Below the pieces are notes generated by a model. That model searched no databases. It saw only the letters and a list, made by a program, of their open reading frames with translations, and was not told where the DNA came from. A stretch of DNA of 64,000 nt from Antedon mediterranea (lineage: Eukaryota > Echinodermata > Crinoidea > Comatulida > Antedonidae). Shown here piece by piece: positions 10,530-34,485 of the stretch; position 1 is the stretch's first letter, and each line of letters begins with the position of its first letter. The DNA lies in NCBI RefSeq assembly GCF_964355755.1, contig NC_092674.1:23710001-23774000 (forward strand), read 5' to 3'. The position numbers were made by a program, and so were the translations under genes.

Positions 10530-10584
10530 ATCTAATTTGTATGTGCTTTCACGTTCTTTAAAATAGGTTGTTTTAAACAAAATG

Positions 10585-11240
10585 AAACGACACAGTGGTT
10601 ACTAAAACAAAAAACACGATTCGTAAACTGAGCATGCGCAGACACTTTTTCATAAAGTGTTTATAGAGTAGATAATAAAAATCTCCAATATTTCAATACA
10701 AAATGATTAATACGGTAATAACTCTCCAAGCGCGAATTTTAGGCGACGAAATTATGAAATTGCAATGTTTAAACCAACATATTCTTTAAATAGACTCCAC
10801 AGTGGTTAATAACAAAACCACGGATCTGGGAAATTCGCAATATCTTTGTAACGTTTACAACAATAAAACTCTTCAATATTTTCCAACGATAATTAATAAG
10901 GTATAACCAATGATTTTATAGCCGAATGTAGGCTACCTCACTGGGTATAATCCACTTGCTTCTTTATTAACAAAATGTTTGTGCACTAAATTATGAAAAA
11001 AAGTATGTTTAAACAAAACGGTTTGTGAATAAATGACACAATGGTTACTTAATTAATAAAAACACGACCAAGAAACGGAGCATGCGCAAACACTTTAATA
11101 CAAAACACTTCAATTTAAAACAATACTTTGAATAATGGACAACAAAATAAATGCAAGACCGAGAACTGAGCACTTTTATTTGTGTTAATATTTATTACAA
11201 TAAAACTCTAATAAAAACTTTAATATTTCCGTTAAAATAA
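10585..11240. repeat. Degenerate tandem repeat upstream of receptor 4
   Basis: Three to four diverged copies, about 210-240 bp apart (starts near 10590, 10797, 11035 and perhaps 11150), share cacagtggtta, aaacacga, gagcatgcgcaaacactt and aaaactcttcaatattt. A related single stretch lies at about 6870-6970 upstream of receptor 3, so the unit was probably part of the ancestral upstream region and was amplified here. GCATGCGC in two copies resembles NRF1 half-sites. Confidence 0.5.
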
Positions 11241-13190
11241 TACGGTTAAACTTTTTATATTGTTCCTCATCTTCAAAATAGGAAACTTTTAAAACAAAGA
11301 GTTCATCATGTTATCTATTTATTAATTTTTGCTTTATACATTTATGAAATGAATTAAGCTAGTACGTCTACTACTAGCTCCTAGGCATATCATAGGCGCT
11401 TCATAATCAAATGACGGATTTTTAAAATAAAATGTCTTCTAGATCTTGCATAACATATGCGAAATTAACAATAGAAAAGAGGAAAGATCATGGCTTACTA
11501 GAACTACTGCACTAGCTAAGCACAGGTCAAAGACGGGGCCAATGTACCGTAGGCCTATGCCTCTCTACCACTACTGTAACGTACACAGTAACACGTAATC
11601 GTAGGAAGGTCCGGCCGGCCTGTGTGCCACGACCAGGATGATCACAAGCTCTACTTGGCACTTGGCAGGCCTAACTATTGTGCACTTACTACGCTTATTG
11701 GGGGACTGTATAAGCTTAAACGAGGGCCGTTCAAATGATCTATACAATACTTACCACTCTCAGTAAGCTATGACTGCAGGAACAGAAAAGATGACATTTT
11801 AAATGAAAATAAACCGTACACATATAACATTGCCTAGCAGCCTAACTCGAATTCCTAACTTGTTTTTCCCTCTTCCTCACAGCTGCATCGTCTGCAAAAA
11901 CTTCTTCAAACCCTCCGCTGATTGGTCAGAAAGAAAAAAAGTAGTTCGAACTTTTATAAAAGTAAGTTCTCCAAATTAGGCCGAACTATGGGGAGCTTGC
12001 TTAAATGTTTTGAATCCCGAATATGTCAAATCCGGTTTTTATATGTTTTTATTATTGTACGATCCCATTAAAAAATAATAATTTCAATTGGATCATCAAT
12101 TTCTCTATAAATTATTAGAGCGCCCTCATTCAAACAGAACACAATCATACTTTATAAGTCCGTACTAAGTTTAAATACATGTAAAATATTGTAATTAACA
12201 CGATTTTGTGAATTTCATTGTGATCAAAGATTATGTATTAAAATGCAATGCATAATCTGTGAGATAAATAAATAATAATGATGTTACCCCGTTTGAATGG
12301 AAGTTGAGATCCTGTTTTCAGGTAGCTTTTTATGTAGGCCTACGCGTATTTTTTTTAAAACGTAGGAACGAATGCTTTTATTGAAATTCTCATGTTGTAC
12401 TAGAGTCTAAATTTTATTCAATTTATATTATTTTTCTAAAAAAATTTAAAGTACTATGAAATCAGTATTAGTGGTTGCATAATCAATAGAGTTCACCCAT
12501 GAATCGAGAAAAAAAAACCAACACACTCATTTGCATTATTCAAAGATAGCGTTCGCTTGTAAACACTCAGATGTAAGACATCGCAGATGTTTTTTCTCTT
12601 TTCCAATTAGCTGGTAATTAATTTTCAAAATCCATTAGATACACTATTATCTCGCAATAAACTGCTCGTTGCCCGGGACTCGTTGTGTGTCGTTTTATCG
12701 CGTCATCTTTGCGACGGTACGCGTTACAATCATCATGCTCACTAATACCGCTGTACACGGATAAGACTTTCGTCATCAGATCTTCTTAACACGATCATAT
12801 TTTGAAATCGATCTGGTATCTAAAGAGTAAATATACAGTTTCTTGCCGTACCATAAATGCACGATACGTGGAATGAATCTAAGTCGTGTTTGTAATGCTG
12901 GTTTATGGATTTATACTGCACTGGCCATTAAGCTATTAAAATATAATTAATAGTCGAGTATAATTTTAGAGATAAGTTCTATCGTCTCCTTGGCCGATGG
13001 AAACTCAGCTGTCAATTATCAAATAGACGTGTAGTGTAGTATTTGCCTAATAAATGCAGAATTATAAATATAATTTAGAACTTTGTAAGTGATGCACTGG
13101 TTGTGGTAGCGAAACGGCATTGGAACGCTCATTATTATTGTTGCTTTTATTTTGAAAATCAAACGATTGGTAACTGGTTGAGCGGACGTT
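11241..13190. other. Intergenic, divergent receptors 4 and 5
   Basis: AT-rich sequence with a less AT-rich patch at about 11540-11700. No gene, RNA or repeat array is recognised. It presumably contains the promoter of receptor 5. Confidence 0.5.
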
Positions 13191-14354
13191 ATGGGCACTG
13201 TGTTATTCACAAACACGTGTAGTGTGGAAATGACTCTTTGTATTGGGGATTGCTATACATTCAAAAATCTGACAGAGAGCAACGAATATTCGAATTGGGA
13301 GACAATATGTGTTTGCTACGTGTTTCCAGTTATAATGTCCGTTGGCGTCATTACGAACATTTCATTCATGTTCGTGTCATATCGTATCTCATATCTTCAC
13401 ACTGCTGTAAATAATTTCCTTATAAATTTATCAATAGCAGATATTATATTCTTACTAATAGCAGTGGGAGAAAAACTAAACAGCTATTACGAGTTAGATG
13501 TGAACATCCACTCTGGGAAGAAGACATTCCTTGGATGTACCGTAACGTCAATATTGAAGAACTCTTCTTCTTTCACGGCTCAAATCTTAGTTACTTTAAT
13601 CGCATTGGAACGATATAGAGTCATATGTTACCCCATCAGAGCTTACACAATACACTCTAGGGTAAGGGTTAGAAGACAGAACTTCGGCTCTTGGGTCATC
13701 GCGGTGCTTCTCTCTGCCTCGATGTCACCAGCCGTCGGTAAAGAAGAATCCTATTGTGGGGTATGGCCTGTGAAGGATGGCGAATTTGTCGTCATTGATA
13801 TATGTGGCAGTGTGAACAAGGGTTTTGTGATCTATTATGAATTTATACAAACAGTTCCTTTCTTTATCGCCTGGACTATTACCAGCATAACGCATATTCT
13901 GATTGTCATAGGCCTGAAGAAGAGCAATTCCGATTCACGTCTACACCCTAAAGGATCCAAAGCGTTAACTAGAGCCGGGAACCAGATTACAGCAATGCTA
14001 TTAATAAACGGCGTAACATTTTTTTTGCTTTTGGCACCGTTCCAAATAACATCATTAATGGCGATGATAAAGCATACTATTGGTGATTACAACAGCGATG
14101 ATCCATCGGAAAATCATACTTTTCTTAATATAGGTAGACTGCTGTTGTACATGAACGCTGCCATTAATCCAATAATATACGTAATAGTGAACCAGCGGTA
14201 TCGTAATGCGTACGTGTTGGTGTTCTGGCGATGTCGTCGCCAAGACGATGACGAAATCGCAGGGGGAAGACCGCATAGCCGACAGGATGTAAACTGTACA
14301 TTTTTAAACATGAAAGATGGTTTTAATCGTCAACAATTTGACACATATTTGTGA
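13191..14354 (+). CDS. Class A GPCR, divergent (receptor 5)
   Basis: Intronless rhodopsin-class receptor of 387 residues from the first Met; Met14 (base 13230) is another possible start. N-glycosylation site NLT at 26. TM1 has Asn56 (VITN), TM2 SIAD (Asp84), Cys116 before TM3, ERY at 140-142 with VICYP, loop-2 Cys189, TM5 at about 211-240, TM6 ending LLLAPF (282-284) and NPIIY at 306-310. The tail has a basic/acidic cluster (RCRRQDDDE). It shares the APF version of TM6 with the other cluster members but is clearly more distant. The stop codon overlaps an AATAAA (14354-14359). The ligand is unknown; it may be peptide-like. Confidence 0.94.
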   Translation: MGTVLFTNTCSVEMTLCIGDCYTFKNLTESNEYSNWETICVCYVFPVIMSVGVITNISFMFVSYRISYLHTAVNNFLINLSIADIIFLLIAVGEKLNSYYELDVNIHSGKKTFLGCTVTSILKNSSSFTAQILVTLIALERYRVICYPIRAYTIHSRVRVRRQNFGSWVIAVLLSASMSPAVGKEESYCGVWPVKDGEFVVIDICGSVNKGFVIYYEFIQTVPFFIAWTITSITHILIVIGLKKSNSDSRLHPKGSKALTRAGNQITAMLLINGVTFFLLLAPFQITSLMAMIKHTIGDYNSDDPSENHTFLNIGRLLLYMNAAINPIIYVIVNQRYRNAYVLVFWRCRRQDDDEIAGGRPHSRQDVNCTFLNMKDGFNRQQFDTYL

Positions 14355-16143: not shown

Positions 16144-17095
16144 TCATTCGAAGTATTGGTGAAGTATTCTACTTTGCATTTCTTGAAACAAAAAAGTACC
16201 GAAGCAATCTAATAATACTACAGTGTCACTAATTAGGCCTCTATACGCAATTCCTGTTTTTAAGAAGGTTTTTTTTTTATTATTATTTTCGGGTAGGCCT
16301 AAATGCGTTACCGATGCAATATTGAAAACCTGAGTTTGTGAATGAAGGTTGGAAAGAAGACGTTTTGGTGAATCCATAATAGTGGACGTGAAGTATTCTT
16401 TTTTGGATTTCCTGAGGTACCGTAACATTATACCATGGACCTATCATTTATAGGTCCATGATTATACTACTACTACATATTACAACTAATTATATATGTA
16501 ATTCCTGAAGCTTGTTTTAAGAATGTTTCTTTGCGGTAGTTATACAAGACGTTTGGTGAATTTATAATAGTGGACGTGAAGTATTCTATTTTGGATTTCC
16601 TGAACCAAAGGTACCGCAAAATTATACTAATACTACATAATTATTACAACTAACTATACGTAATTCCTGAAACTTAAGAATGTTTCTTTGCGGTAGTTAT
16701 ACAAGACGTTTGGTGAATCTATAATAGTGGACGTGAAGTATTCTATTTTGGATTTCCTGAACCAAAGGTACCGCAAAATTATACTAATACTACATAATTA
16801 TTACAACTAATTATATATACGTAATTCCTGAAACTTAAGAAGGTTTCTTTCCGGGTAAATACGTTACCGTTATAGTTATACAAAACGTTTGGTGAATCCT
16901 TAATAGTAGACATGAAGTATTTTATTAGATCCTGAACCAACGATACAGCAACAGTGTACTTCTACTACTATTAAAACTAATATATACGTAATTTCTGAAA
17001 CTTATTTTATGAATTTTTCTTTGTGGGTAAATGCCTACAATAAAAATTTAAGTTTGTTGATATTTGGAAACAGGACGTTTGGTCAACCCATGCTT
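16144..17095. repeat. ~160-bp tandem array directly upstream of receptor 6
   Basis: Five to six copies of a unit of about 160 bp with landmarks gacgtttggtgaat, aatagtggacgtgaagtatt, ttggatttcctgaa, ggtaccg, attatactaatactac and tacgtaattcctgaaactt. The two central copies (about 16519-16835) are nearly identical and the outer ones degenerate. The array ends about 27 bp before the receptor 6 start codon, so it probably forms its 5' UTR or proximal promoter. Confidence 0.85.
16427..16467. mobile_element. Palindromic insertion in one array copy
   Basis: One copy of the array carries an extra perfect palindrome with 11-bp arms (catggacctat / ataggtccatg) and a 5-base loop at 16434-16460, bounded on both sides by attatac. 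The neighbouring copies have a single uninterrupted attatac there. It looks like a tiny foldback insertion with a 7-bp duplication. Confidence 0.5.
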
Positions 17096-17121
17096 TCATC
17101 ATCCGACTACACATTGCAGTA

Positions 17122-18306
17122 ATGGAAATATACCAAGAAGTATTGTCGACCGAGCTAATTAGAGACTCGAGTATATTCAATTATACGGATGTCGCTAGTT
17201 TTTGTATCGACAGAAATTTTACTTATACTCCATCTTATTTGTATACAAACTTTGAGACTGTAAACATACTAATCATTTTACCGTTACTACTTTTTCTGGC
17301 AATTCTTACAAACTTGGTGTTTATCATCGTTGTTGCGCGTGCACCTCGCATGCGCACGACAACAAATATTTATCTTGTGTCGTTAGCTTTAGCAGATCTT
17401 TTGTATACAATAATTGGAATTACGGAGAAGCTCCACGCGTATATAAGATCGCCAATTTACTTTGACAGTGCATATTCTTTAGACTTATGGTGCGCAGTTA
17501 TGCCTTTGTTGAAGAACGCAGGACTTTTTGCGTCGATGTTCCTGGTGACTGTGTTCTCTTACGAGAGATATGAAGCAGTCTGTCATCCTCTTACAAAACA
17601 TAGCCTCAGTTCCAAACGACGCGCACTCAAACACATTACGATTGCTTGTGTTTTGGCGCTAATACTTGCCGCCACAACTGTTCCAGCATTCGCAAATAGA
17701 GTCGTTGCCTGTCTGAAGAAACTTGCAGAAGACGAACACTCTGATATTCCAGACACGATAATTTTATGCACACCGGTAAAGCAACGGTTCGAACTTTACA
17801 ATGATTTCGTCCAGACTCTTCCGTTTTTTCTTGTTATGATATTCAGTAACGCTGCGTACGTTTTGATTATAATAGAAATTCGAGGAAGCGCAAGAGATGC
17901 GAAACTAAAACGTGCGGATTCAAGTCGAGTTATTCAAGAAAGCATCAACATCACAAGGATGCTGATTGTAAATGGTGTCGTGTTCTTTATCCTAATGGCA
18001 CCATTTCACATTTTATCTTTAAGTGGAGTGATCAGTTCCATAATCACGGGTGAGTACCTTCTATCGGAAGAGGCATTTAGATGGATTATACAGGTCGTTC
18101 GGGTGCTTGCATACTGTAACGCTGTCGTGGATCCGGTGATCTACAGCGCCGTTAATCCGTCGTATAGAAAAGCCATGTACCAAGTCATTTGCTCGCTACA
18201 TATACTGAGAAGGAAAAGGTCGAATAGCTTTGGCACTTACTCGATGTCATACCTTCTGACAGAGCGCGACAGAAGACCTTCAAATGTGAACGAAACTATA
18301 ACCTAA
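17122..18306 (+). CDS. Class A GPCR, divergent (receptor 6)
   Basis: Intronless rhodopsin-class receptor of 394 residues. N-glycosylation sites at Asn20 (NYT) and Asn32 (NFT). TM1 has Asn64 (ILTN), TM2 SLALAD (Asp92), Cys124 before TM3, ERY at 148-150 followed by EAVCHPL, loop-2 Cys187 and Cys206, TM5 at about 210-237, TM6 at 277-299 with LMAPF (293-295), and TM7 DPVIY (337-341) in place of NPxxY, a common variant. Helix 8 and tail are strongly basic (LRRKRS). The start is the first Met after the tandem array and gives a normal-length N-terminus. It lies with receptor 5 in the more divergent half of the cluster. The ligand is unknown. Confidence 0.94.
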   Translation: MEIYQEVLSTELIRDSSIFNYTDVASFCIDRNFTYTPSYLYTNFETVNILIILPLLLFLAILTNLVFIIVVARAPRMRTTTNIYLVSLALADLLYTIIGITEKLHAYIRSPIYFDSAYSLDLWCAVMPLLKNAGLFASMFLVTVFSYERYEAVCHPLTKHSLSSKRRALKHITIACVLALILAATTVPAFANRVVACLKKLAEDEHSDIPDTIILCTPVKQRFELYNDFVQTLPFFLVMIFSNAAYVLIIIEIRGSARDAKLKRADSSRVIQESINITRMLIVNGVVFFILMAPFHILSLSGVISSIITGEYLLSEEAFRWIIQVVRVLAYCNAVVDPVIYSAVNPSYRKAMYQVICSLHILRRKRSNSFGTYSMSYLLTERDRRPSNVNETIT

Positions 18307-19654: not shown

Positions 19655-19660
19655 TTTATT
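19655..19660 (-). promoter_or_regulatory. Poly(A) signal of the fusion gene
   Basis: AATAAA on the minus strand about 95 bases after the TAG stop at 19752-19754. It is the nearest canonical signal. Confidence 0.6.
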
Positions 19661-19751: not shown

Positions 19752-22700
19752 CTATAAATCATCATCCTCTTCTTCAACTAATCTTCTACTAGACTCCAAT
19801 CCTGTTTTTCTTTTAGACATTAGTGGTTTCATTGCTGTTGCTAGACTCTGGTACAGTCGTGGAAACAGAAGCTCTTGTGTTGCTAATAGTTGCTTTGTTC
19901 GATGTCTTTCCTGAAAAATTCAAACAATGAAATGATTTATAATCTTTAAATTGTCCAAACCTACAGAATTTCTCTAAAATTACGAGCATTCCAGGTCATG
20001 GAAACAACCATTGTTTTCAGAAAAGTATCCTTTTCTTAAACTGAACATACAGTAGAACTATATACATATCCAAAAAGTCTGACTCCACAAACTTAGTCCA
20101 TAAGAAGTTCATCATAATTGAGAACAAGGTCTATGTAGGAAAGGGGGAAAAACAGGTCCTCCAAAAATATTCCGCAGAAACTACTTCCTAGAAATATCTC
20201 CTCTTTTTTTCAGAAGTAGTAATTTAAATCTGTATTATGCTGTTAATTGGGACATCATACCCCTTATGAATAGTAGCGAGATCTTCCTGGTAGTGAACTA
20301 GAAAGATTCTACAAGCTTTCCTCAAAGCTCTATCTACATTATCAAACTTTAAGTGATAAAAAAATTGCTCATATATGGATATGCTGACGTCATATCTCTA
20401 TCATATTTAGGAACATCACACTTTTTTTTTGTCAGTTTAATAGTGTAAAGCTTTACTCTTTCCACAAACAACTGTAAATTCATCAGGTATTACCTATCTC
20501 CCACCAGTAACAAATACATAAAGAGGATTATATACCTTTGGAGCCTCGAAGCAAGCTGGGCAATTCTCAGCAATGACTGGCAAACGCATCTACGTAAACA
20601 AATAAACTGTTTCATTAAATGTAGTTTTGATTTTAACATTATTGTTATTCAGTTTATACAGTAGAACTCCTATTCAAGGGACACTTTTGGGGCTCAAAAA
20701 GGTGTCTTCTAAATAGAAGTTGAAAGTAGTGTTAAAAATAGATTTCCCGTCTTGTCCCCTGAATAGGGCTCTACTGTATCTATCAAAATATATTGTGACA
20801 AAATAAAATATTTATTAAAAGTTGGTGCACCAAGGCTCAAAACTGACTAAATTATAACATTTTTCTACAACTATTCTAAAAACGTGACAATACCTCTTTA
20901 GCAAAGTCTCTGAGATCTTTTTCTCTGACATATACAAATGGTCTGATGACTCTTAAATCACCTTCTCTATAAAAAAAAAAGAGAACAATTGTATTATTTG
21001 TTTATAACTACAATAACACTTTTGTACTCTCTCTTCAATTAGTTTGATTTAAAAGTCTATTTTCCTGTGACTTACACACCGGATTACAACATGCATTAAG
21101 GCCAATTAACACAGAAGAACGGTAACAGCAATAAAAATATAGAATCTATGTTATTCCTTGTGACCATTTACACACAACGTGGAGCGGGCAGGTAGTTTCC
21201 GCTCAGGATACAGATTCTACATGGGACAAGTTACACGGTTTTCCACTTACAGTTACTGCTTGTCTGTGTAAATTGGCCTTTTAACGTTTTCTCGCTTCTG
21301 AACTGTGTTGTAAATCAAACTTACTTTACAATATAGTTGGCTTTCATCGTTCTCATAAGGCCATTGTGAAAAACAGACATAAAAAAGCTGAAATAAAAAC
21401 ACACTACACTTTAGAATAATTATTTTAAAAAAATGTACTTAAGACAAGATTATTTTAAATTGGACGTATCAACAATGTTTCATTAGATATCATACCTCTC
21501 AGCTAAATCATCTAGATGCTGACCCATTGCAAGTACATTGTAGTTCTCACGTCTTGCGGCCGCGTAAATTCTACCACGTTTCATTCGTGAACAAAAACTA
21601 CATATTGATGTGCATTCAGGAAGTGAAGCTGCTTGTTCCATTATACCTGTATGAGACACAAAATTTAGTTCATTGACACTTTTGGGGGAGAAATTGAGAA
21701 TGGAAATTACATATTTTTAAATATTTTTATAGATTTTTGCCCAGTAGTAATTGTTTAGCAATACTATAAATTATATGTCATGTCATAAATCAGAAATAAA
21801 TCATATTTCAATTCAAACATGTTTATTTTTGTTTAGGCCTAATAAGCCAATCAAATTATTATTATACTTGCATTGTTCTTCATAAAAATATGGCACCCTC
21901 AGTTCTGATAGGTAACCTTTCAATGGGCTTGGGTCATAGGTCGATGTTTGTGGATCAACTGTGACTGCACCAAGTTCAAATGCTATATTCTAAAATTAAA
22001 ATTAAAGAATTTGAACAGATCTTATTTTTAACTAAATCTAAGAATATAAATACAGATTTTGTGATTAAAATACATTGTTTAAAGATTTTTTATCTAAACA
22101 TACAGATAACGCTAATTTTTTTCAAGCAACAATTTAAAGAAAATTAGTTTAGTCAAAGGTCGACATGGGTGCTTTTAAGTAAATAGTTCCTTTTATCTGA
22201 AATGAGTTGCTTTCAACATAAGCCTGCCAGATGTTTTCCATCAACAAACCTAAAGTGTTACAAATTGCTATCTCGTAGTTATACTTACTTTTTTCTTCGC
22301 ATAATATTGATATTGTTTTAGCGCATGTAGCAGAGACAAACTGTCCTTCCCACCAGATAAACAAACAAGTACTTTGTCACCATCGTGTATCATGTCATAT
22401 TCCTCAAGAGCCTAGAAAGATTTAATTAAAATGATGACGAGTTTTTCAAATAATTGACTTGTCATTACACAACCTTAACCTCTGTCTACACTATCAATCT
22501 AGTTTGACAAACAACTGTGATATGTCCATATATATAAATGGTGACATCATATCACTACCATACTTAGGCAAGACACTTACGTTTGTCTCTCTCCACTCAG
22601 GTGTACATGGGTTGCTGATTACTAGCTGCATAATTATGGCAGCTGCCCATACGTGTTTGATCTAATGGCCAGAGTAATAATGTGAAGCGCTTAGAAGCAT

Positions 22701-25700
22701 TGAGCATTAAAGCACTAGATTGACATAATTACCTCTGTTGTTGGTTTAAATATGCTCTTGGGTGGTGGGTAAAACCTTGGCGTTCCATCCACCTCTTTCT
22801 TCTTTTTGTTGTTCTGTTTCTGAAACTTATGCTTAGGTTTTGGAGGCTTTCGTTTAATAAGTGGACAGCTGGTTACTGATGTATCTTTAATATCCTTAGT
22901 ACAAGTTGTTTCTTTTGCTGATTCCGATTGCTTATTCTTTCGTGAAGATTCAAATTTATCACAGGAGCAATTATAAACTTCTGTGTTTCCTCCAGTTGGT
23001 AAATCACAGTGACCATTTTCTGGATGTCTAAAATGACTATTTTCTATATCTAGGTTACTATGTGGCTGATATGATAAACATTTTCCAACTGTGAGAGGTA
23101 AATGATCTGATGATGTGCACTTCTGTGATATCTTTTCTTTTTCCAGCTCACCATTTATAGCAGAATGAGTATCATCACTCTTTAATGTCTCGTCAGCTGA
23201 ATGTGATGTCCTCATCTGCACATCATTGTCTTGAACCAAACCATAAATATGTTGCACAGAAGTAATATCTTCTTTTGTTTCTAATGACATTTTGCTAATT
23301 TTTTCTTTACAGTCAGATACTCCTGCAGCTAAGACAAAGTCTTTTGTTGATGAACTAATATGGTGATCAGACAAATACTCTGATTTTTCTTCTAAAGAAG
23401 GAGTTTTTTGGTCAACCTCTAGTGGTGTCTTCTGGACATCTTCCTTAGAATCATCAGGTCCTAAATGGCATAATTCTACTACTGATTCTCTTTCCACCTT
23501 TGCAATTCCTTCCTTTTGTTGATGTAATGTTGTATCATCTGGATGATGTGGTGGATTGAATGGCATTGTATTTGTGATGGAATGACTTGGGTCATTCTGA
23601 ATCTGAACAGCTTCACTCGGCAGTATAAACCATCGTAAAGATTCTGCCTTTTTGTCAAAAAGCAGAGACTGATCTGGTAGGTCAACCTTTAAAAAGGTAA
23701 AAAAAACAAGGAAAAATCAGGACTAGGCACATACATGAAATATAGCAACAGTATATTCTAAATGTGGTTGAATTAAGATGACACACATATGGCATTCATT
23801 AGTCTGTTCACAACGGCATCGACTGCAATGCAATAGCACCGGAGTTAGACCCAATCTCTTAGAAGAAGCACTTGGTTCTTCCAAGTCCACATAAGCCAGA
23901 TGTTTATCCAGTCATTTTAGGAAGATTTTTCTATCAGAACTAAAGATAGCTGATTTTATGGCTATGATTTGCAGCGCCCTTGCCGTTTGCAGCGCCTTAA
24001 CCTTTCTCCCACTCGACTAAAACATATTCTACTGTAGTTATAACTTACATTCATTTTAGAATTGAATATCTCTGTGGCTAAATTCGAACAGTCCTAGAGA
24101 AACAAAAACCAAAACAATTATAACTATAAATAACAGGATTTACAACGGACTAACAATCCTTAAAAGGTTTTTCTTCTAAAAGTAATCAAAATATTTGTTG
24201 GTACCTGATAGTTTTCTGGGGACCTTCCTTTGTTTTTTGGGACTGGAGGTTTAGGGTAAGCTAATTTTCCAGTTGCGTAAGAAATAGAACCAAGCCAGCG
24301 CCGATCTCTGAATACTTGATGATAACGCTGCTTCCATTCTCCAGTTTCTGGGTTAAACATGTACTGAAATGAAAAATGTTTATGTACAGTAGCAACAGAA
24401 TTTTTGGAAATTTAATTCCTCGGCCTGATGAATAGTTACGACAGTGAACACATTATTCAATCAAAACTTTTAAATTAATATCTTCTATTTACCTGTGGCA
24501 ACAATTTCCATCCCTCATTTGCTACCATAGCAACGGAAGAAATAACAAACTCTACCGCCTCATCACTCATAAAATAAGGTAGATTAATACGTGCAAAACC
24601 TGGCCTAGATGTAGATAATGAAAACAGTATATTTACAGAATGCAATCTTCTTAATTCTCTTTTTAAACATTATATTTACAAATTGTATTTCTCCATATAT
24701 TTTAACCTAATTAAATATAATAGTATATATAGAAATGCAACCATATTATTTATTTTAGCAGACTTGCCCCAAGTCTCTAGTTATTGTCTTTTTTAATTTA
24801 TGTATAGTCAGCTTTTTCATTTGTCTGAAAAAGTATTATACATATTAAACGCCAACTAAGACAACATTTTCTTTTCACCAATATTAGGTCGAAATGCTGT
24901 CTAGAGCCTAGACTAAAATTGTAGGTAAATTTTCTGTGGTTTTAATTTTAACCTACAGTATAACAGTTTTTGTCTACTTAACTTTGCAGTATTTAAAATA
25001 AAAAATGAAACATGAATGAAAACAATGTTTTTTATGTTAAATGATACATTTACTATAATAAAAATGTTAAATTACCTTAATATTTCTTTTTCAGAATATT
25101 CTTGGTACCTTCTCAGATGTGTTCTGTCCAGTCGACTGCAAAACAATAATAAAAAAGTAAATTAAAGTCCATTATAATATCTAATTTACATGGTTAGCCT
25201 TCTACATTGTTTGAAAGACATGTGGGTCTCTCTTCCATAAGATGCACACCATTAGTAGCTTTTAGCATACACAATATAAAATAGTTTTAGTAAAATGGAA
25301 ACATGCAATTTATACCTGTCTTCTAAAAGGAGGGATTCAATCTCTTTTGCTAAATTTTCATCAATGCCAAGCAAGTCCTAAAAATCAAAATAATTAAATC
25401 ACAGTAGTTATATATTTGGATTGAATTTCAAACTACAAAATTAGGCATGTACGTTATCAGGGTATGCAATATCATAAATGGGGTAGTCTCACCCATCGAC
25501 CCCACCTTTCCATGGTACACCACTGGGTATATAGGATGCTTATTCAAGCATGTGGTGCTGTACTTACCTGAGCATATGGTACATACCTGAGTGTATGGTA
25601 CATACCTGAGTGTATGGTACATACCTGAGCATATGGTACATACCTGAGCATATGGTACATACCTGAGCGTATGGTACTTACATGAGCATATGGTACATAC

Positions 25701-27773
25701 CTGAGCATATGGTACATACCTGAGCATATGGTACTTACATGAGCATATGGTACATACCTGAGCATATGGTACTTACATGAGCATATGGTACATACCTGAG
25801 CATATGGTACTTACATGAGCATATGGTACATACCTGAGCGTATGGTACTTACATGAGCATATGGTACTTACATGAGCATATGGTACATACCTGAGCATAT
25901 GGTACATACCTGAGCATATGGTACATACCTGAGCATACGGTCCAGCACAAGCGCAACCTCCTCTAGCTTGAATACCAAACACGTCATTCAAAACTGCACA
26001 AATGAAATTATGATGCAAGAACTGTTTGGTGACTGGATGCCTTATAAGGAAGCTGAAAATGGGAAGTCTCTTTAGTGACGTGTTGCCAAGCAGAACTAGG
26101 TTTTTACACGTCTTCCAGGCATCTAATGCTTTCCTTTAATATAAAACAAAACTTGAAATAATCAACTTTTAAAATATGATTACTCTATGCAGTATATTCA
26201 TCATTGGCAGACATGGGGAAATCTTTCAATTAAAGGGTTTTTCACACTTATTCTGGCAATGTTCTGGTCCGCTGTCGACAAATCAAATAAAACGTCAATG
26301 TTTTGTTTTCATGCTGCATATTGCTTGGTGCATAGTCGCATGGAGCGTTGTGAAAACGAAACATTGACGTTCAATTTGATTTGTCGGCGTCGAACCAGAA
26401 CCGTACCGGAAGATGTGTGATTGATGACTATGACCATGTCTTTTTAGGACTTTTTAGTCTTTTGTGTTAAGTTGCTTGTTAATGCTTGATAACTATTTTA
26501 ATTAACTAGGTAAATATATACAAGAACAACATTATATTCTTATGTAAATTTGATAGGTCTCTCGATTAATATATTATAGTGTTTCTCTGCATGACATTTC
26601 TGGGAGTAAATAATAATGAATTTCTGATCTTTTACCTTTATTAAACTTAACTTTTTAACATTTTTGTTATTAGCTAACAGATTTTAAAACCTAGAGATAC
26701 TCTTTTAACTAATAATTGTATTAACTAATGAGATAAAGTAGCTATATTGTGTTTTTCTCTTTATGCAGAAAGTATTTGAATGGAATCCAAAACAGTAGTT
26801 TAATGAATTCCTTACTTGCACAATTCATGCTCCATTTGCATTATCAAATCAGCTCCCACAGCCTGTATATGTAAACAATATTAAAACATATTAAAATGGA
26901 AAAGACTTATTAAAACAATAGAACATACTGTATGTCATTACATCATACGTTCACTGACATGTCAACATGAATGTCCACTATCGAAAAATACATATATATC
27001 TGTGGACTAGTACCAGTTGACTACAATCCATGTGGACGTGAACTTTGTGCCCGGTCACTCAAACCAAAAAGAAACATTTCTCACCTCCTTCAGCTGAAAA
27101 ACCATACCAGCTCGGATAGCTCCTACTATAGAGGGCGTACCACCTTCCTCTCGCATTTCAATTTGTTGCAGGTACCGATGACTTTCTCTTGTAACCTTAA
27201 AAGGATCGTTAAAATGTTATTTTGAAAGATTGATAAATGAAAGATAGTTACAGTAGAACTCTTTTAAAGGGACACCTTCGAGACCTAACAAAATATCCCA
27301 TTAATAGGGGTGTGAATTGAGTAGGTGTTGGTCATATAGTGTTAAGATATATTTCATTTTGTTCATTTCAAAGTGTTCTTAAATATTGGTGACTCCTGAA
27401 TAAGAGAGTCTCAAATGAAGGGTTGTATCTACAACATTGCATAGCGACTGATGTAGTTGAGCAGCTCGGAAAAACTCTCATGAGACGTCAGTTCACATTG
27501 GTTTATTCTTTTATGAATCTGTCTTACTAAAGCTCTGCCTACACTATTTTATTTATTTTTTTATTTTATTCATTTCGGCAATAAACTATCAAACTTAGTC
27601 TAGGTTCAAGACAAAAATTGGTATACAAGATAAATATTTTGGCACATTATGGCATTTCATACGTATAATACACAAATCGAAATGCCCCCTGGTGGACTAA
27701 CAATAAAAAATGACAATAAATACAGACTTGGGGCAATTCTATCAAACATTATGTGACAACAAAATATGATATA

Positions 27774-27819
<46 letters not shown>

Positions 27820-30800
27820 CATATATCACTACAATATTTGGGCATCACTACCATATTTGGGTACACCACACTTTTTTGTCAAACTACAAGATAGTGTAGA
27901 CAGAGCTTTACATTGTATTTTAATTAAAATCTTACAAAGAACACAGAACCGCCACCCCCTCCGTCAGTAGGTACAGGATTCCTGAAGAGTTTCTTCTTTG
28001 CAATTAACACACCTGGGGTTTCCACTCCACCAACAAACTTATGGGGTGAAAGGAATATTGCATCTTTATGAGCCAGACCACTGGTACTGAAAGGGTACAA
28101 ATGAATTATAATTAAAAATATTAACAATCAGGTTTGATTAGGCTGAATGTAGCTGAACCCTCTTAAGCTCTGTCTACACTATCAAATTTTATGTGACAAA
28201 AAATGTGATGTGGCCATAATATGGACATAATGATGTTATATCACTACCCTATTTTGGCATACCACTACCATATTTGGGCACAACTAGTTTGATAGTGTAG
28301 ACAGAGCTTAACACATTATTTCCAAGAATATATCTGACATGAAAAACTTCTCACCTGGTAACTGGATTCATATCAATTTTAACATATGGACCTAAACAAG
28401 AAAAAGAGAGAGAGAGAGATCATTTTTAAGCTCTGTCTACACTATTAAACTAGTTTGTGTGCCTAAATATGGTAGTGATAATGCTCAAGTATGGAAGTGA
28501 TATGACATCACCATGTCCATATATGGGCAAATCACATTTTTTCTCACATAAAATTTGATAGTGTAGACAGAGCTTTAGGAACAAATGCTTTGAAATTCTT
28601 TTTTTTTTTGCAAAACAAACAAATATTCAAATTTATATGTAGACCTGTGGTGCCATATTCAGCAATCACACTAATTCAAGTGAGATATTTCTCTTAAATA
28701 TTAAGTATTTCACTTAAATTTAAAAGAGTGTTTCCCTTAGCCTAGGTGTGAATGGTAAATACAGATCACTTTGACAAATTGTTGACAGTTGACTATTGCA
28801 TTGTGGGAACAAGTATACATTTTGAAATGCCTTAAATTTCACATAAAATTAATTATAAAGCAAATTATACAGTGATGTAAAAGGGAAAAATTAGTTTTTA
28901 GACTTTTTAGTCTTGTGTTCCAAAATCCTGGATCCACCACTATATCTATACATGAAACTAAAGTGTACTATATACCAGCAGTAGCATAGTCCCAGAAAGC
29001 CAGAGCATCATAGCGGTGAAGACATGTGGTGATTGAATCTGTATCCAATAGAATTCCAGTAATGTTAGAAGCAGCTGAAAAACAGCCAATCAGTTGCTTC
29101 CCAGACTCCTTCCATTTCTAAAAAAAAAAAACAATTTTAAAAGTTTAAATATAAATTGAAGGCAATTACTGCTAAAACTGGATTTTAATTTTTTTAAATC
29201 AAGAAAACAGATCCAAACTTGGAAAAATAAAATACTAATAATAAGAGATTTTATAAAAGCAAGGCCAAACCATAGAGGCCACACTATTTTTTTAAATTAC
29301 CTCCGAACATAGATGGGCTATGAGAATATTTTTTACAAAATCAATAAGTTTTATCACAAAAAACGTGAGCGATGCATGATGGGAAGGAATTGGGAGCAAT
29401 AGCGCCACCAACAGTATATAAAGTTTTTATTATACCGTGGCGCTATTGCTTCCAAACCCTTCCATCACTTGCGAAATCAAATCCCAATCGACTTGGGAGG
29501 TCTGGTAAAACGTTAAAAGTAAACATTCAGAATTAAGGCCACATATTACTTTGTTAGGGCTACATTAGATATTCTTATCATTCTAAATTGATTTCTTTAA
29601 CTTACCTTCAGTTCCTCTTCCAAGTGAGTCATATTAACCCCTGCTTGTGAATCTTGTGATATACGAACAACCTGACAAAGAGAGAAATAAAAGAATAAGG
29701 GCAGGTATGTAACCAGCTTTTTGGAGAGCCAGTCGGCAACAAATTATCCCCACACCCACCCCCGGGTTCGGTGGGATACCCGGGGATTACCGTTATTAGG
29801 CCTATATAAATATTGTAATAATTAGTAGTGATGTTTGGCAGCCTGTAAATTCTGGTCGAAAATTTTGAGTGCTGGATGGGTCCGTCCGACACTTACCAGC
29901 GTGGTGACATCCCTGTAGAGGGCACTTTGTGACAAAAGCTGTATATTATAGCATTTTTGTCATTTTAATGTATTGTACAGCTTCACAGTCTTGCTAAATT
30001 TTTAATAAACAAGTAGATTATATTTTTTTTGAGTGAATAATAAATTCAATAACAAATAATAAATGACCTGACTGACTAATAAATATTTTCAATTTTTAGT
30101 ATATTTTTTTGTTAAAAATGTATTTGGATAAATTCCATATTTGTTTATTTTTCATTTTGTATGAATATTTGTATTAAAAGAAATGACAAGTACCTTGGCT
30201 CCAATTTCTCGCCATGGCAAAAAAGTTGAATGATGCTCAAATGGTCCAACAAATACAACCTGTAGAAATTTTTATTTTTTTTTATTAAGTGTTACAAAAT
30301 AAGTAAGTAAAAATATAATGAATTAAGAACTTAGAGACTGAGCGAAAACACTTGGCAGAATACTGATACCGACAGAGGGTATGTTATTTCGGCCAATGTT
30401 AAAAGAATACAGATTTTTTATTTTAAAACGATTTTCTTGTTCTGCAAGTATATACCCATTTACACCGAAATAATAGTATTAATAATAATGCTCAAGGCCC
30501 AAATGGGAAATTAGATAAAAAAAGACAAAAACTGTGGACACTATTGTGCAAACAAACAAACAAACAAAGCAAGTATTATTCTTAGTAAAATTCTATTTTG
30601 CCAAGTAATCATGGTCTACTGAACTAATAATATTATACTAGCTAGCAAACAGTCAATCAGCTGGACAGAAAGAAGCTATAATTAATTGAAAAATGCGAAT
30701 TTAAAAATAATACATAAAATAAAAAAATGAGAAAATTACTGGAGGTGTAGTGAGGTTGAGGGCATTGATTAATTTATGAACTGCTCCTGTGCAACCGGTG

Positions 30801-33800
30801 CCAACAAATATAACAGCATCATGTTCACTAGCTTTCACAGCATTACGAACAATATCCCTGCAAAAAAAGCATATTTAGTAAATTTTCTTTTAAAAAGTGA
30901 AATTAGCATAACAAAACAAACTAGAAAGCCACTCCGAGAGTGCATACCTCCGCCTACTGTAAAATTCTCCTACATAAGAATTCTCCGGTAAAAAAATATA
31001 TATATATATTTGTGTGTGTCTTAATGCTGTTTGTGATTTACGCTAATTTCACTACAAGCATGTGTATGCGAGTTTGGTGTACACGTTATGTAACCAGCCT
31101 TTCAACTAACAATAGATTCAGTTGACTAACAATACAACAGCAACGCGAAAAAACACACGAGTGAATTTGAAAAGAAATAGGTTTTTTAACTTGACTCGCA
31201 TTAAAAAACCTGTTTATTAAATCTAATTAAGTTTTAAAATTACAAATCACAAATTATAACTCTTGCCTCTTGTACAAAAATGAAGTTTTTTGGACAAGTA
31301 CTTCCCGAGAAAATGCAATTTTAGTTTACTTGTTAATTTAAGACTGCTCACCGGCTTTTGATAATTCTGTCCTATCTTTTAACACTAGCAGGTCTGAAAA
31401 TAATTTTTAAAAGTGGTCCAGAATTGGGACCATGGTCCAGATTTTAACCAAAATTGGGCAGTGTTGTCCTTGCACCAGGTGACATGTATGGTAGTAATTT
31501 GGAGTCATTCGAATCAAAACTCTGTGAGCGCTAGAGTGATGACAAACAAACAAACAAACACACACACAAACCAAACAGATCAACATACTTGGCCAATTTT
31601 CAATTTGGCCAAATAACAAAACACACACAAACCAAACAGATCAACATACTTGGGCAATTTTCAATTTGGCCAAGTAACAAACACACGCGATCGATTACAT
31701 ATACCTCCTTGGCAGAGGTAAATAACATAGTTTTGCATTTTTGTTGGAATATGCACTATACGACCCCCGCGAGAGGTGCATCATACTTTATGATTACCAT
31801 AGCATTCCTGCGTCAAAAAAAGTGACTAAGCTTTAAGTTACCATGATATGGTGGGTGGTAAAGTAACAGACATTGACACACCATTGTTCATTGATGTGAT
31901 GTACCAATCTAGGTGTTTTGACTCACCCCTGTTCAATTATCATTTGTAAATGACGCATCCATGACTCGCCTCTCCCAGGGGTCGTATGTGAGTAATTCAA
32001 TTGAGTGAATTACAGTTAGATACTGATGTTTTAATCTTTTTATTAATTAAATTCAGCAACAATAGTTACCTTGCCTCATGACGAAACAGAGTTGTCTGTA
32101 AGGATGTTACTGATGTTGTTGTGTGAGTGTTTCCATACACTGGCAATACCTGTTCACTTATGTAATCTTCAATGAATTTCAAAGAACTATAGAAGAAAAA
32201 AAGTAAGCTTTTAGCAGTGCAAAAATGCTTCAGTTGTGTGAGCTGATTTTTATTAAAGTTGTGTGAGCTGATTTTTAATAAGTTGTGTGAGTTGATTTTT
32301 AATAAAGTTGTGTGAGCTGATTTTTAATAAGTTGTGTGTGCTGATTTTTAATACGTTGTGTGAGCTGATTTTTAATAAAGTTGTGTGAGCTCATTTTTTA
32401 AGTTGTGTGAACTGATTTTTAATAAAGTTGTGTGAGCTGATTTTTATTAAAGTTGTGTGAGCTGATTTTTAATAAGTTGTGTGAGCTGATTTTTAATAAA
32501 GTTGTGTGAGCTGATTTTTAATCAGTTGTGTGAGCTGATTTTTAATAAAGTTGTGTGAGCTCATTTTTTAAGTTGTCTGAGCTGATTTTTAATAAAGTTG
32601 TGTGAGTTGATTTTTTTTAGTCGCGTGATGAGCTGATTTTTAATAAAGTTGTGTGAGCTGATTTTTAATCAGTTGTGTGAGCTGATTTTTAATAAAGTTG
32701 TGTGAGCTCATTTTTTAAGTTGTCTGAGCTGATTTTTAATCAAGTTGTGTGAGCTGATTTTTTTTAATCGCGTGATGAGCTGATTTTTAATAAAGTTGTG
32801 TGAGCTGATTTTTAATAAGTTGTGTGAGCTGATTTTTAATAAAGTTGTGTGAGCTGATTTTTAATCAGTTGTGTGAGCTGATTTTTAATAAAGTTGTGTG
32901 AGCTCATTTTTTAAGTTGTCTGAGCTGATTTTTAATAAAGTTGTGTGAGCTGATCTTTTTTAGTCACGTGATGAGCTGATTTTTAATAAAGTTGTGTGAG
33001 CTGATTTTTAATAAGTTGTGTGAGAGCTGATTTTTAATAAAGTTGTGTGAGCTGATTTTTAATAAGTTGTGTGAGCTGATTTTTAATAAGTTGTGTGAGC
33101 GGATTTTTAATAAAGTTGTGTGAGCTGATTTTTTAATTTGTGTGATGGATCAGGGAGTAAAGAATGTATGGATGAGCTGGTTTTTTAAGTAGTGTGAGAT
33201 GATTTTTACTCGGGGTACCCGAGTCTAGGACTTACTCATCTTCTCTTCGTCCATCTGGACACTATTGAGTAAAAAGTGCAAGTTTATTTTGCTTTGTGCT
33301 TATTACCATATTTATTTGTAATTTAAATGGATTAAAAAACTTTGTGTAACCCACATTTTTAGTGTAAGAGGTTTCATAGTGTAGTGGTTGTCAAGTCTGC
33401 TTAACACGCAGAAGGTCCCGGTTCGAGCCCTGACGAAACCTATTTTTCTTTAACTTTATGGTGAAATAAACTGTATACGTAATATGATATACAGAGTATA
33501 TCTCGTTTTATTACTCGGGGTACCGGAGTCTAGGACTCTCTCATCTTTTCCTCTTCTTCTTCCATCCGGACACTATTGAGCAAAAAGTGCGATTTATAAA
33601 GTACTACTCCTCCCTTATTCGTTGTAGTATTGAGCTCGGATTTAGCATGAATATACTACAGGGACATGTCCTCTAAGCTATAGAGCCGGATTTTTTAATT
33701 TCAAACCGGATGCAGCCATATCACGTCTCGAAGATGGTACCGTATAGCCATATTTGGTAGCGCGGTTATTGATGTGTATGTGACGTTGCATCCGGTCTTA

Positions 33801-34485
33801 TGACGTCATTACAGCTTCTTTCGCTAGTGTACCCCGAGTATTGCATTCGTGCTTGTTCAAGCTGTGTGAGATGTGAGCTGATTTCTTACGGTATGTTGTG
33901 TGTGATGATTTTGTGAATTAACCTAGTAGGCTACTTACCGTCCAGAAGCTGTGTAATCACAATATGTAACTATAAAAAGGAGGACAAACAATTAATTATA
34001 TGTGTGTGCATAAAAATTGTAAGAATTAATTTTTTCATTTCTCAATCTCATAATACAAGGTAGAGGGGAGGGCCTAAATCACACTGCAGTATTATTTATT
34101 ACATGATACCACAAGAAATTCCATTATAGTGTTCACTAGGGCTATATCAATCAATATTCCAAAAAGTATGTTAGTTTTTTGCAAAGATTCGGCCGTTGCG
34201 AAGTGACTAAAATAACAGTATGGCGATATGGGGCGAACCGACTTTACCTGTACGTTGCCCAAATGGTCCAGAAAACGACGTGTTGTTGCCCAATACATTT
34301 TCGTCAATGTATTTTAGCAGCAATTTTGAATCAGATTTCTTACTACTTTTAAGCTTTTTCGTAACTAATTGTTCAATTGTATTATTTGGTATTTCATAAA
34401 ACGTTCTATATCCATGCGTTAGTGTTTCTTGCACATTTTCGTCAATGTTTTTGTTGCACTTCTTCGTACTTATGGAGGCTGCCAT
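19752..34485 (-). CDS. Class V aminotransferase (cysteine desulfurase-like)-TtcA PP-loop fusion
   Basis: Predicted 1153-residue protein; phase closes across 25 exons: 34248-34485, 33939-33969, 32070-32186, 30740-30857, 30194-30259, 29606-29671, 28976-29117, 28355-28391, 27936-28086, 27085-27195, 26816-26862, 25929-26133, 25316-25377, 25076-25135, 24493-24604, 24205-24363, 24049-24093, 22733-23686, 22289-22411, 21872-21989, 21496-21646, 21325-21387, 20894-20966, 20536-20589, 19752-19910. Residues about 60-610 are a fold-type I PLP enzyme: [16 protein letters not shown], Schiff-base Lys288 in LSPHKFVGG, and [11 protein letters not shown] near 438, where desulfurases carry the catalytic Cys. Residues about 620-890 are a polar, disordered linker. 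Residues 908-1153 are TtcA-like: ATP loop SGGKDS (926-931), CSFC (1003-1006) and CPAC (1093-1096) as iron-sulfur ligands, [17 protein letters not shown]. Inference: it removes sulfur from cysteine and thiolates tRNA in one chain. Intron 20 has a GC donor. ATG at 34485 (aaagATGG). No targeting peptide is obvious. Confidence 0.9.
20324..20455. mobile_element. MITE family A copy (intron 24)
   Basis: Diverged palindromic element with agctctatctacattatcaa at the left and an inverted relative (aatagtgtaaagcttt) at the right. It shares the central atatgga...gacgtcatat block with other family A copies. Confidence 0.65.
20657..20780. repeat. Family D foldback repeat
   Basis: Begins acagtagaactcctattcaa and ends with the inverted tgaatagggctctactgta. 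Relatives with ctattaaagggg and aaggtgtcc are at about 27250-27440, 45300-45410, 49350-49480 and 52150-52400. Probable MITE family. Confidence 0.6.
21096..21284. mobile_element. MITE family C, copy 2 (intron 22)
   Basis: TTAA at both ends; inverted termini aaggccaattaacacag and ctgtgtaaattggcctt. The middle (taacggtaacag, gaatctatgttatt) is shared with the other family C copies. Confidence 0.8.
22475..22720. mobile_element. MITE family A joined to a SINE 3' part (intron 18)
   Basis: Left half of a family A MITE (ctgtctacactatcaatcta at about 22480) runs to about 22567, then changes into sequence matching the SINE at 39629-39939 from ggcaagacacttac to about 22720 (ctctctccactcaggtgta, cccatacgtgtttgat, gtgaagcgctt). 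The SINE head and the MITE right end are missing. Confidence 0.6.
25560..25939. repeat. 19-bp minisatellite made of splice-donor units
   Basis: Exactly 20 contiguous copies of a 19-bp unit, consensus gtacatacctgagcatatg on the plus strand, with no spacers. On the minus strand each unit reads catatgctcag|gtatgtac or catatgctcat|gtaagtac, a 5' splice-site-like sequence. The last unit (25921-25939) overlaps the final 11 bases of exon 12 of the fusion gene and its real donor, so the array was made by duplicating the exon-intron junction. Seven units carry the gtacttac (GTAAGT) version followed by a, and the first carries it followed by c. Confidence 0.97.
26242..26420. mobile_element. Foldback MITE (intron 11)
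   Basis: Two arms of about 70-80 bases: the left has gttctggtccg, gacaaatcaaa and acgtcaatgttt, the right has their inverted complements (aaacattgacgt, tttgatttgtcggcg, cgaaccagaacc). Ends ttcacact / agatgtgtga. Non-coding. Confidence 0.75.
27250..27440. repeat. Family D repeat (intron 9)
   Basis: Starts acagtagaactcttttaaag, contains aataggggtgtgaattg and tagtgttaagatatattt, and ends tctcaaatgaagggttgt. Diverged copy of the 20657-20780 family. Confidence 0.5.
27528..27910. mobile_element. MITE family A copy with insertions (intron 9)
   Basis: Outer ends agctctgcctacacta and gatagtgtagacagagcttt match family A. The middle is interrupted by about 200 bp of unrelated AT-rich DNA and an (AT)n run at about 27778-27814, followed by two atatttggg blocks typical of the family. 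Confidence 0.65.
27778..27814. repeat. (AT)n microsatellite
   Basis: Uninterrupted alternating AT of about 36 bases inside a family A MITE. Confidence 0.95.
28163..28311 (+). mobile_element. Intact MITE family A copy (intron 8)
   Basis: 149 bp, TTAA at both ends, with inverted termini agctctgtctacactatcaa / ttgatagtgtagacagagct. It is among the best-preserved members of the family. It lies 43 bp from exon 8 of the fusion gene, opposite in orientation to the copy at 28426-28577. Confidence 0.9.
28426..28577 (-). mobile_element. Intact MITE family A copy (intron 7)
   Basis: TTAA-started element with the same inverted termini. Its reverse complement aligns along its whole length with 28163-28311, so the two copies form an inverted pair around the 37-nt exon 8 (28355-28391). 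Confidence 0.9.
31560..31680. repeat. ~61-bp tandem duplication (intron 3)
   Basis: Two copies of a unit with acacacacaaaccaaacag, atcaacatacttgg and aattttcaatttggcc, preceded by a short (AAAC)n run. Confidence 0.9.
32232..33203. repeat. ~24-bp minisatellite (intron 2)
   Basis: Several dozen copies of a unit close to gttgtgtgagctgattttta plus aata(a), with a higher-order pattern of variant units (agctcattttttaagttgt; agtcgcgtgatgagctgat) recurring in blocks of about 135-165 bp. It degenerates after 33140. Confidence 0.95.
33207..33840. mobile_element. TIR-bounded element with duplicated left end
   Basis: The 12-bp tactcggggtac occurs at 33207 and again at 33512; its exact inverted complement gtaccccgagta is at 33829-33840. 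About 85 bp after each left end are duplicated (gagtctaggact, actattgagtaaaaagtgc). A tRNA-like sequence lies between the two left ends. It looks like a nested or compound non-autonomous element in intron 2 of the fusion gene. Confidence 0.5.
33370..33440 (+). tRNA. tRNA-Val(AAC)-like sequence, probably degenerate
   Basis: The 71-base sequence closely resembles animal tRNA-Val(AAC). Acceptor GGTTTC/GAAACC, A-box-like tagtgtagtgg, a perfect 5-bp anticodon stem TCTGC/GCAGA around loop TTAACAC (anticodon AAC), and B-box-like GGTTCGAGCC. A T-run follows at 33442-33446, suitable for Pol III termination. The D-stem and T-stem contain mismatches and the T-arm is one base short, so it may be a pseudogene or the head of a tRNA-derived repeat. 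Confidence 0.5.

Follow-up and report, generated by a model that had tools for sequence, protein, structure and literature searches.

Can an animal carry in one polypeptide both an enzyme that takes sulfur from cysteine and an enzyme that places it on RNA? The question is raised by a gene found in Antedon mediterranea, on the minus strand of a stretch of 64,000 nucleotides (contig NC_092674.1, positions 23,710,001 to 23,774,000; hereafter the window, whose own numbering is used below). One reading frame, from 34485 to 19752, joins a class V pyridoxal phosphate (PLP) domain, related to the cysteine desulfurase SufS, to a PP-loop domain related to TtcA, the tRNA 2-thiocytidine(32) synthetase. 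On balance, comparison with known families favors a bifunctional sulfur-transfer enzyme, in which a cysteine desulfurase would feed its own Fe-S RNA thiolase within a single chain. A first interpretation, made from the nucleotide letters and named here the sequence-only reading, had proposed such a fusion and is partly supported by the results presented below.

Gene structure and the fusion exon

Each exon was placed by hand on the minus strand, guided by phase and consensus splice sites and independently of the sequence-only reading, whose start, end and count of 25 exons are reproduced. The coding sequence, of 3,462 nt and 1,153 codons, begins with an ATG at 34485 and its stop codon ends at 19752. 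Phases close across all the exons, with no frameshift or internal stop, and 23 of the 24 introns have GT-AG borders, the exception being intron 20, which is GC-AG (donor after 21872); the small exons 2 and 14 fill gaps that would otherwise break the phase. The gene and its coordinates, predicted from DNA, are confirmed as real. Its features are the following:

34248..34485, minus: exon 1, start codon; N-terminus to GPFGQR
33939..33969, minus: exon 2, CDYTASGR
32070..32186, minus: exon 3
30740..30857, minus: exon 4
30194..30259, minus: exon 5, FEHHS (His177)
29606..29671, minus: exon 6
28976..29117, minus: exon 7, DYATAG (Asp255)
28355..28391, minus: exon 8
27936..28086, minus: exon 9, Schiff-base Lys288 in SPHKFVGG
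27085..27195, minus: exon 10
26816..26862, minus: exon 11
25929..26133, minus: exon 12, [10 protein letters not shown] with Cys435 and Cys437
25316..25377, minus: exon 13
25076..25135, minus: exon 14, RLDRTHLRR
24493..24604, minus: exon 15, PGFARINL with Arg489
24205..24363, minus: exon 16
24049..24093, minus: exon 17
22733..23686, minus: exon 18, fusion exon; LRWFILP tail, linker 23608-22790, start of PP-loop domain 22789-22733
22289..22411, minus: exon 19, PP-loop SGGKDS
21872..21989, minus: exon 20, GC donor
21496..21646, minus: exon 21, CSFC and GQHLDD
21325..21387, minus: exon 22
20894..20966, minus: exon 23, [11 protein letters not shown]
20536..20589, minus: exon 24, CPAC
19752..19910, minus: exon 25 and stop
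19655..19660, minus: poly-A signal AATAAA, seen in the sequence about 92 nt past the stop

The junction lies in exon 18 (954 nt), which holds in succession the LRWF tail of the class V domain, a linker of 273 residues and the first residues of the PP-loop domain. Since both domain edges are inside it, the fusion sits within one open exon and needs no guessed splice to join the domains; two separate genes are ruled out for the DNA on the same ground. The exon is open for 318 codons, whereas 20,000 first-order Markov sequences modelled on it included not one without stops (mean 20.3 stops); this open reading is not due to chance.

In the protein, FEHHST (position 175), DYATAG (255), SPHKFVGG (285), RGGCACAGP (432) and LRWFILP (606) are followed by SGGKDS (926), CSFC (1003), GQHLDD (1029), [11 protein letters not shown] (1066) and CPAC (1093). 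The Pfam search that the sequence-only reading had proposed as a check recovers both expected families, Aminotran_5 over residues 82-443 (E 1.9e-33) and ATP_bind_3 in the C-terminal piece (E 5.1e-15); no further Pfam domain is found in residues 1-625, in the linker exon or in residues 889-1153. Lys, Ser, Glu and Asp are abundant in the linker, which also contains nine cysteines and has a lysine-rich stretch just before the PP-loop domain; its exon gives no Pfam match at E≤1, and it could, as a guess, serve as a tether or bind RNA.

A 19-bp repeat of 20.1 copies (window 25560-25941) has its start inside the final 13 nt of exon 12 and copies the splice donor of this exon (CAG/GTATGT or similar), so that a series of donor-like sites stands at the start of intron 12; as the unit is not a multiple of 3, most of these sites would shift the frame.

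The genome to which the gene belongs, 354 Mb in 18 contigs, gives 38 wnt matches, against none in 14 prokaryote control genomes; wnt being found, to our knowledge, in animals only, the genome is that of an animal.

The class V domain and its bacterial relatives

Relatives of the class V domain were sought by one pattern scan over 84,980 bacterial and archaeal genomes. It yielded 77 loci (L001-L077), among them Actinomycetota, delta-proteobacterial, Acidobacteria and Halomonas records, whose best segment is 34-51% identical to the animal domain; these bacterial proteins stand alone, without a PP-loop domain. In an alignment of 69 of the 77, Lys288, His177, Asp255, Arg432, Arg489, Cys435 and Cys437 are invariant (69/69), and an LRWF-type tail closes the stand-alone proteins, Trp608 being present in 54, replaced by Phe in one and facing a gap in 14. 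Alignment with solved SufS proteins pairs Cys437 with the active-loop Cys of SufS (R432-GGCA-C437 versus R-x-G-H-H-C), which we take to be the catalytic one, and K288, H177 and D255 with their SufS equivalents, presumably the PLP Schiff-base lysine, the histidine base and the PLP aspartate; Arg489 would be the second substrate arginine of SufS. The cysteine-desulfurase-like active site of the sequence-only reading is borne out by this invariance and by the position of Cys437.

The structure model is that of the bacterial homologue L003, not of the animal protein (34 sequences, mean pLDDT 92.6), and predicts the SufS fold for this homologue: it matches cysteine desulfurases in the 50 listed of its 1,576 PDB hits (E≤0.001), one of these being E. 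coli CsdB, titled selenocysteine lyase, and 8kg1 with Z 33.6 and a root mean square deviation of 2.2 Å over 397 residues. The NCBIfam SufS model, however, gives the animal domain 110.3 bits versus a cut-off of 475.1, and on this ground the domain is best described, by sequence comparison, as a distinct SufS-like family marked by a Cys-x-Cys active loop, not as SufS; none of the other nine NCBIfam models listed for it reaches its own cut-off. The closest counterpart of the domain is SufS and not IscS, the donor named for E. coli TtcA in a review (PMC5372739).

Three further class V loci (L094, L095 and L096) are found on contig C2 of the same genome; they keep GCACAGPYA, and the ends of their matches coincide with many exon borders of the fused gene. 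None shows a PP-loop match in the 9-10 kb fetched, which extend about 1.7 kb past the last match of L095, and the class V domain would therefore have a use without the PP-loop. The four class V genes are probably a set of sulfur-mobilising enzymes; the one member scanned reaches no NCBIfam cut-off.

The bacterial class V gene has no general conserved neighbour, the widest cluster being found in 9 of the 77 loci. In six loci (L056, L057, L058, L060, L061 and L062; five Halomonas or Vreelandella and one Roseinatronobacter) it is followed by flavin oxidoreductase and TRAP-transporter genes, with Pfam run on one representative of each gene; this arrangement is possibly an uptake and breakdown operon.

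The catabolic look of these six loci, together with the three paralogues and with the metazoan OvoB lyase being described, in extracts of PMC8623360, as missing outside hydrozoans, would suit a different enzyme: a C-S lyase, or some other PLP enzyme of class V, working on a different sulfur metabolite, with a PP-loop domain acting on its product and not on RNA. Such an enzyme appears unlikely, since all 69 homologues keep the Cys that matches the active-loop Cys of SufS and the 42 PDB sequence matches (E≤0.001) hold no entry named ergothioneine or ovothiol lyase.

The PP-loop domain and its bacterial subfamily

The best NCBIfam model for the PP-loop domain is TtcA, with 199.9 bits (cut-off 272), followed by TilS with 63.3 and TtuA with 52.1. 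As a yardstick, eight of nine bacterial PP-loop homologues score 301-487 bits with the TtcA model and one scores 197. The animal domain possesses SGGKDS and two CxxC pairs (positions 926, 1003-1006 and 1093-1096), and is devoid of the C-x-L-C-G-S motif and of the HLLD tail, each present in seven of the nine bacterial comparison rows. Canonical TtcA was rejected, the NCBIfam cut-off not being reached; thus, of the TtcA-type thiolase announced by the sequence-only reading, the TtcA-like nature with two CxxC pairs stands, while the identity with TtcA itself does not. It follows that its caution about C32 as the target base was right.

Across 398 Pseudomonadota genomes only two matches pass E 1e-42, at 55% and 48% identity. 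In the order that holds the 55% match, 50 of 300 genomes carry a subfamily of such proteins, 49 of them at 49-59% identity and one at 39%. Five scanned members score 195-229 bits with the TtcA model, likewise under its cut-off. Of 265 positions in the animal domain, 85 are conserved across at least 95% of 21 subfamily proteins, among them SGGKDS, QHLDD and each of the four CxxC cysteines. In a tree of 35 proteins, for which long branches are a caution, a branch (97/88) separates ten TtcA rows from the animal domain and the subfamily. By these comparisons the animal PP-loop domain belongs with a separate bacterial TtcA-like subfamily (QHLDD/NCPxCF), beside or inside it.

In half of the 22 loci, 11 in number (L121-L125, L127-L129, L132, L136 and L140), a pteridine reductase gene immediately precedes the subfamily gene; one of these reductases is named by NCBIfam and the rest by similarity to that one. 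A second shared gene near the subfamily gene in these loci is what we take to be MidA, and a gene taken for dsbD is near it in five of the 22. No pteridine reductase match was found next to canonical TtcA in 13 other PP-loop loci searched, a weak comparison because the loci are short. A smaller search gave one class V stretch of 43 residues in L101 (E 6e-4).

A Myxococcota donor was rejected: 125 of 188 genomes gave a match, but identity was 37% at most among the matches listed. Plasmid records were rejected too (at most 35.0% among the matches listed, 20 of 52), and one pattern scan of viral contigs gave no relative. PHROG 27769, a phage protein family of function not known, matches the PP-loop half with 127 bits (window 19910-22789), and some phages therefore seem to carry a TtcA-like protein. 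A bacterial operon turned into a fusion is an unsupported origin, as none of the 77 class V loci and none of the 22 subfamily loci pairs both genes in the stretches fetched.

Proposed mechanism and its weighing

In the proposed reaction the SufS-like domain would use PLP to take sulfur from L-cysteine, leaving it bound to Cys437 as a persulfide; Cys435, which precedes this residue by two positions, may help to relay it. The sulfur would then move to the PP-loop domain, either directly or via the flexible cysteine-bearing linker, and by analogy a persulfide might be transferred to the cluster or to a CxxC cysteine. Using ATP and a probable 4Fe-4S cluster, for which the two CxxC pairs would be the ligands, the PP-loop domain would thiolate an ATP-activated pyrimidine in RNA, most likely in the tRNA anticodon loop, at C32 or at another base. 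Bacterial precedents are described in extracts of PMC5372739: E. coli IscS and TtcA make 2-thiocytidine 32 (s2C32), a product that bacteria can form only if Fe-S clusters are made; of the cysteines in the two CxxC motifs of TtcA, three hold a 4Fe-4S cluster; and cluster-bound sulfide is the proposed sulfur donor, the reaction mechanism of TtcA being called unclear. In addition, a natural desulfurase-rhodanese fusion carries out both reactions in vitro, as reported in extracts of PMC8931425.

Several observations weigh against such an enzyme. The fused protein is one predicted from DNA. The PP-loop domain misses the TtcA cut-off and the class V domain that of SufS; moreover, the latter reads DYAT for the DGAQ of SufS, and AQ after GPY versus GH in 69/69 bacteria. 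In the bacterial loci examined the two genes are not associated, with a PP-loop match (E≤1e-3) in 0 of the 77 class V loci, within fetched flanks of up to 5 kb, and a class V match (E≤1e-4) in 0 of the 22 subfamily loci. The three paralogues are without a PP-loop match, and the oxidoreductase and TRAP-transporter genes of the six loci speak against a simple desulfurase.

A broader proposal, which is put forward tentatively, is that of a self-contained cytosolic RNA 2-thiolation enzyme in an animal, with cysteine in and thiolated tRNA out, as s2C32 or a new thio-base; it would be independent of the NFS1-URM1-CTU1 relay and would derive from the joining of two genes of bacterial type, which lie apart from each other in the bacterial loci examined.

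Other sulfur genes and the remaining alternatives

IscS/NFS1-like exons, MnmA/MTU1-type exons and a zn-ribbon_14 match, the last of which we take to mark CTU1, are present in the same genome; the standard sulfur and wobble-thiolation parts thus seem present in the animal, in searches that match exon by exon and reveal pieces, not full genes. With the full protein as query, the PP-loop half is found in the window only, best candidates being those scored. Whole-genome Pfam searches with Aminotran_5 and ATP_bind_3 list no match in the fusion gene itself, and silence of exon-wise family searches therefore carries no meaning.

The animal's own IscS/NFS1-like exons and the dependence of bacterial s2C32 on cluster formation would also agree with a desulfurase half that, in the cytosol, builds or repairs the Fe-S cluster of its PP-loop partner, the sulfur for RNA coming from elsewhere. 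However, a desulfurase that has neither scaffold nor iron at hand would not be expected to make a cluster on its own, and the Pfam searches described above reveal no further domain in the protein segments covered; this role is somewhat less probable than that of a lyase. An alternative enzyme for wobble 2-thiouridine 34 (s2U34), to which the distant relationship of the PP-loop domain with TtuA and Ncs6 might point, is improbable, given that the genome keeps the zn-ribbon_14 match and the MnmA/MTU1-type exons and that NcsA gives 26.4 bits against a cut-off of 500. Finally, a false merger of two adjacent genes, or a decaying, non-functional relic, would be conceivable for a gene model built from DNA and with a 20-copy repeat able to disturb splicing at the exon 12 donor, yet both are very improbable with the two domain edges in one open exon, 25 exons free of frameshifts and stops, and intact active-site residues.

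Surroundings of the gene

Five long open frames for rhodopsin-type receptors are clustered beside the fusion gene:

2473-3657: open frame, Pfam 7tm_1
5688-6794: open frame, Pfam 7tm_1
9441-10598: open frame, Pfam 7tm_1
13182-14354: open frame, Pfam 7tm_1
17044-18306: open frame, Pfam 7tm_1

Intron 2 contains a 25-bp tandem repeat of 36.8 copies (window 32232-33133) and, on the strand opposite to the fusion gene, a tRNA-Val (AAC) gene (window 33369-33442, plus strand).

Novelty and comparison with known systems

Each half is of a known kind; what appears new is an animal protein in which a SufS-like desulfurase and a TtcA-like thiolase are fused. No animal TtcA and no SufS-like/TtcA-like fusion occurs among the titles and abstracts listed from the open-licence literature, and the same fusion may well be in sequence databases under a bare locus name. 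In a review table (PMC5372717) TtcA is entered for E. coli, and neither human nor yeast has a counterpart there; an animal TtcA-like enzyme therefore makes the presence of s2C, or of another unlisted tRNA thio-base, in some animals directly testable. If the broader proposal holds, the animal would have a tRNA thio-base for which that table gives no human or yeast enzyme. One protein may do the job otherwise split between separate proteins, and a one-chain desulfurase-thiolase would offer a clean system for sulfur channelling.

With SufS, a group II cysteine desulfurase, the class V half shares the fold, as predicted for L003, and the aligned PLP lysine, His, Asp, Arg432 and Cys437; it differs in its active loop, CAC versus HHC, and in its score under the NCBIfam cut-off, and L003 is 19-26% identical in structure matches and has about 100 extra C-terminal residues outside them. 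The likeness to the stand-alone bacterial proteins L001-L077 extends to the Cys-x-Cys loop (69/69) and the tail Trp, but these have no PP-loop domain and carry GH after GPY where the animal has AQ.

For the PP-loop half, the PP-loop itself, two CxxC pairs, IRP and the best family score are shared with TtcA, whereas QHLDD replaces HHRDD, NCPAC replaces CNLC, the HLLD tail is missing, the score is under the cut-off and the domain is fused. The TtcA-like subfamily of one Pseudomonadota order (L098-L140, L101 apart) has the same DPQ, QHLDD and NCPxCF motifs; its members are instead stand-alone, half of the loci searched placing them after a pteridine reductase gene. The cut-offs for TtuA/Ncs6/CTU1 are not reached (TtuA, 52.1 of 450 bits; NcsA, 26.4 of 500).

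DNA phosphorothioation by DndA with DndC, or SspA with SspD, is likewise the work of a desulfurase and a PP-loop ATPase, which are however separate proteins. PADLOC gave no match to the PP-loop domain at E≤0.001 and only 28-29 bits to the class V domain. The MOSC domain, mark of MOCOS and ABA3, was not found in residues 1-625, the linker exon or residues 889-1153. Parallels in design are the Pseudorhodoferax desulfurase-rhodanese fusion and plant ABA3, described in extracts of PMC8931425, where a desulfurase is again joined to a sulfur-using partner; this partner is a rhodanese or a MOSC domain, while in the animal protein it would be an RNA thiolase.

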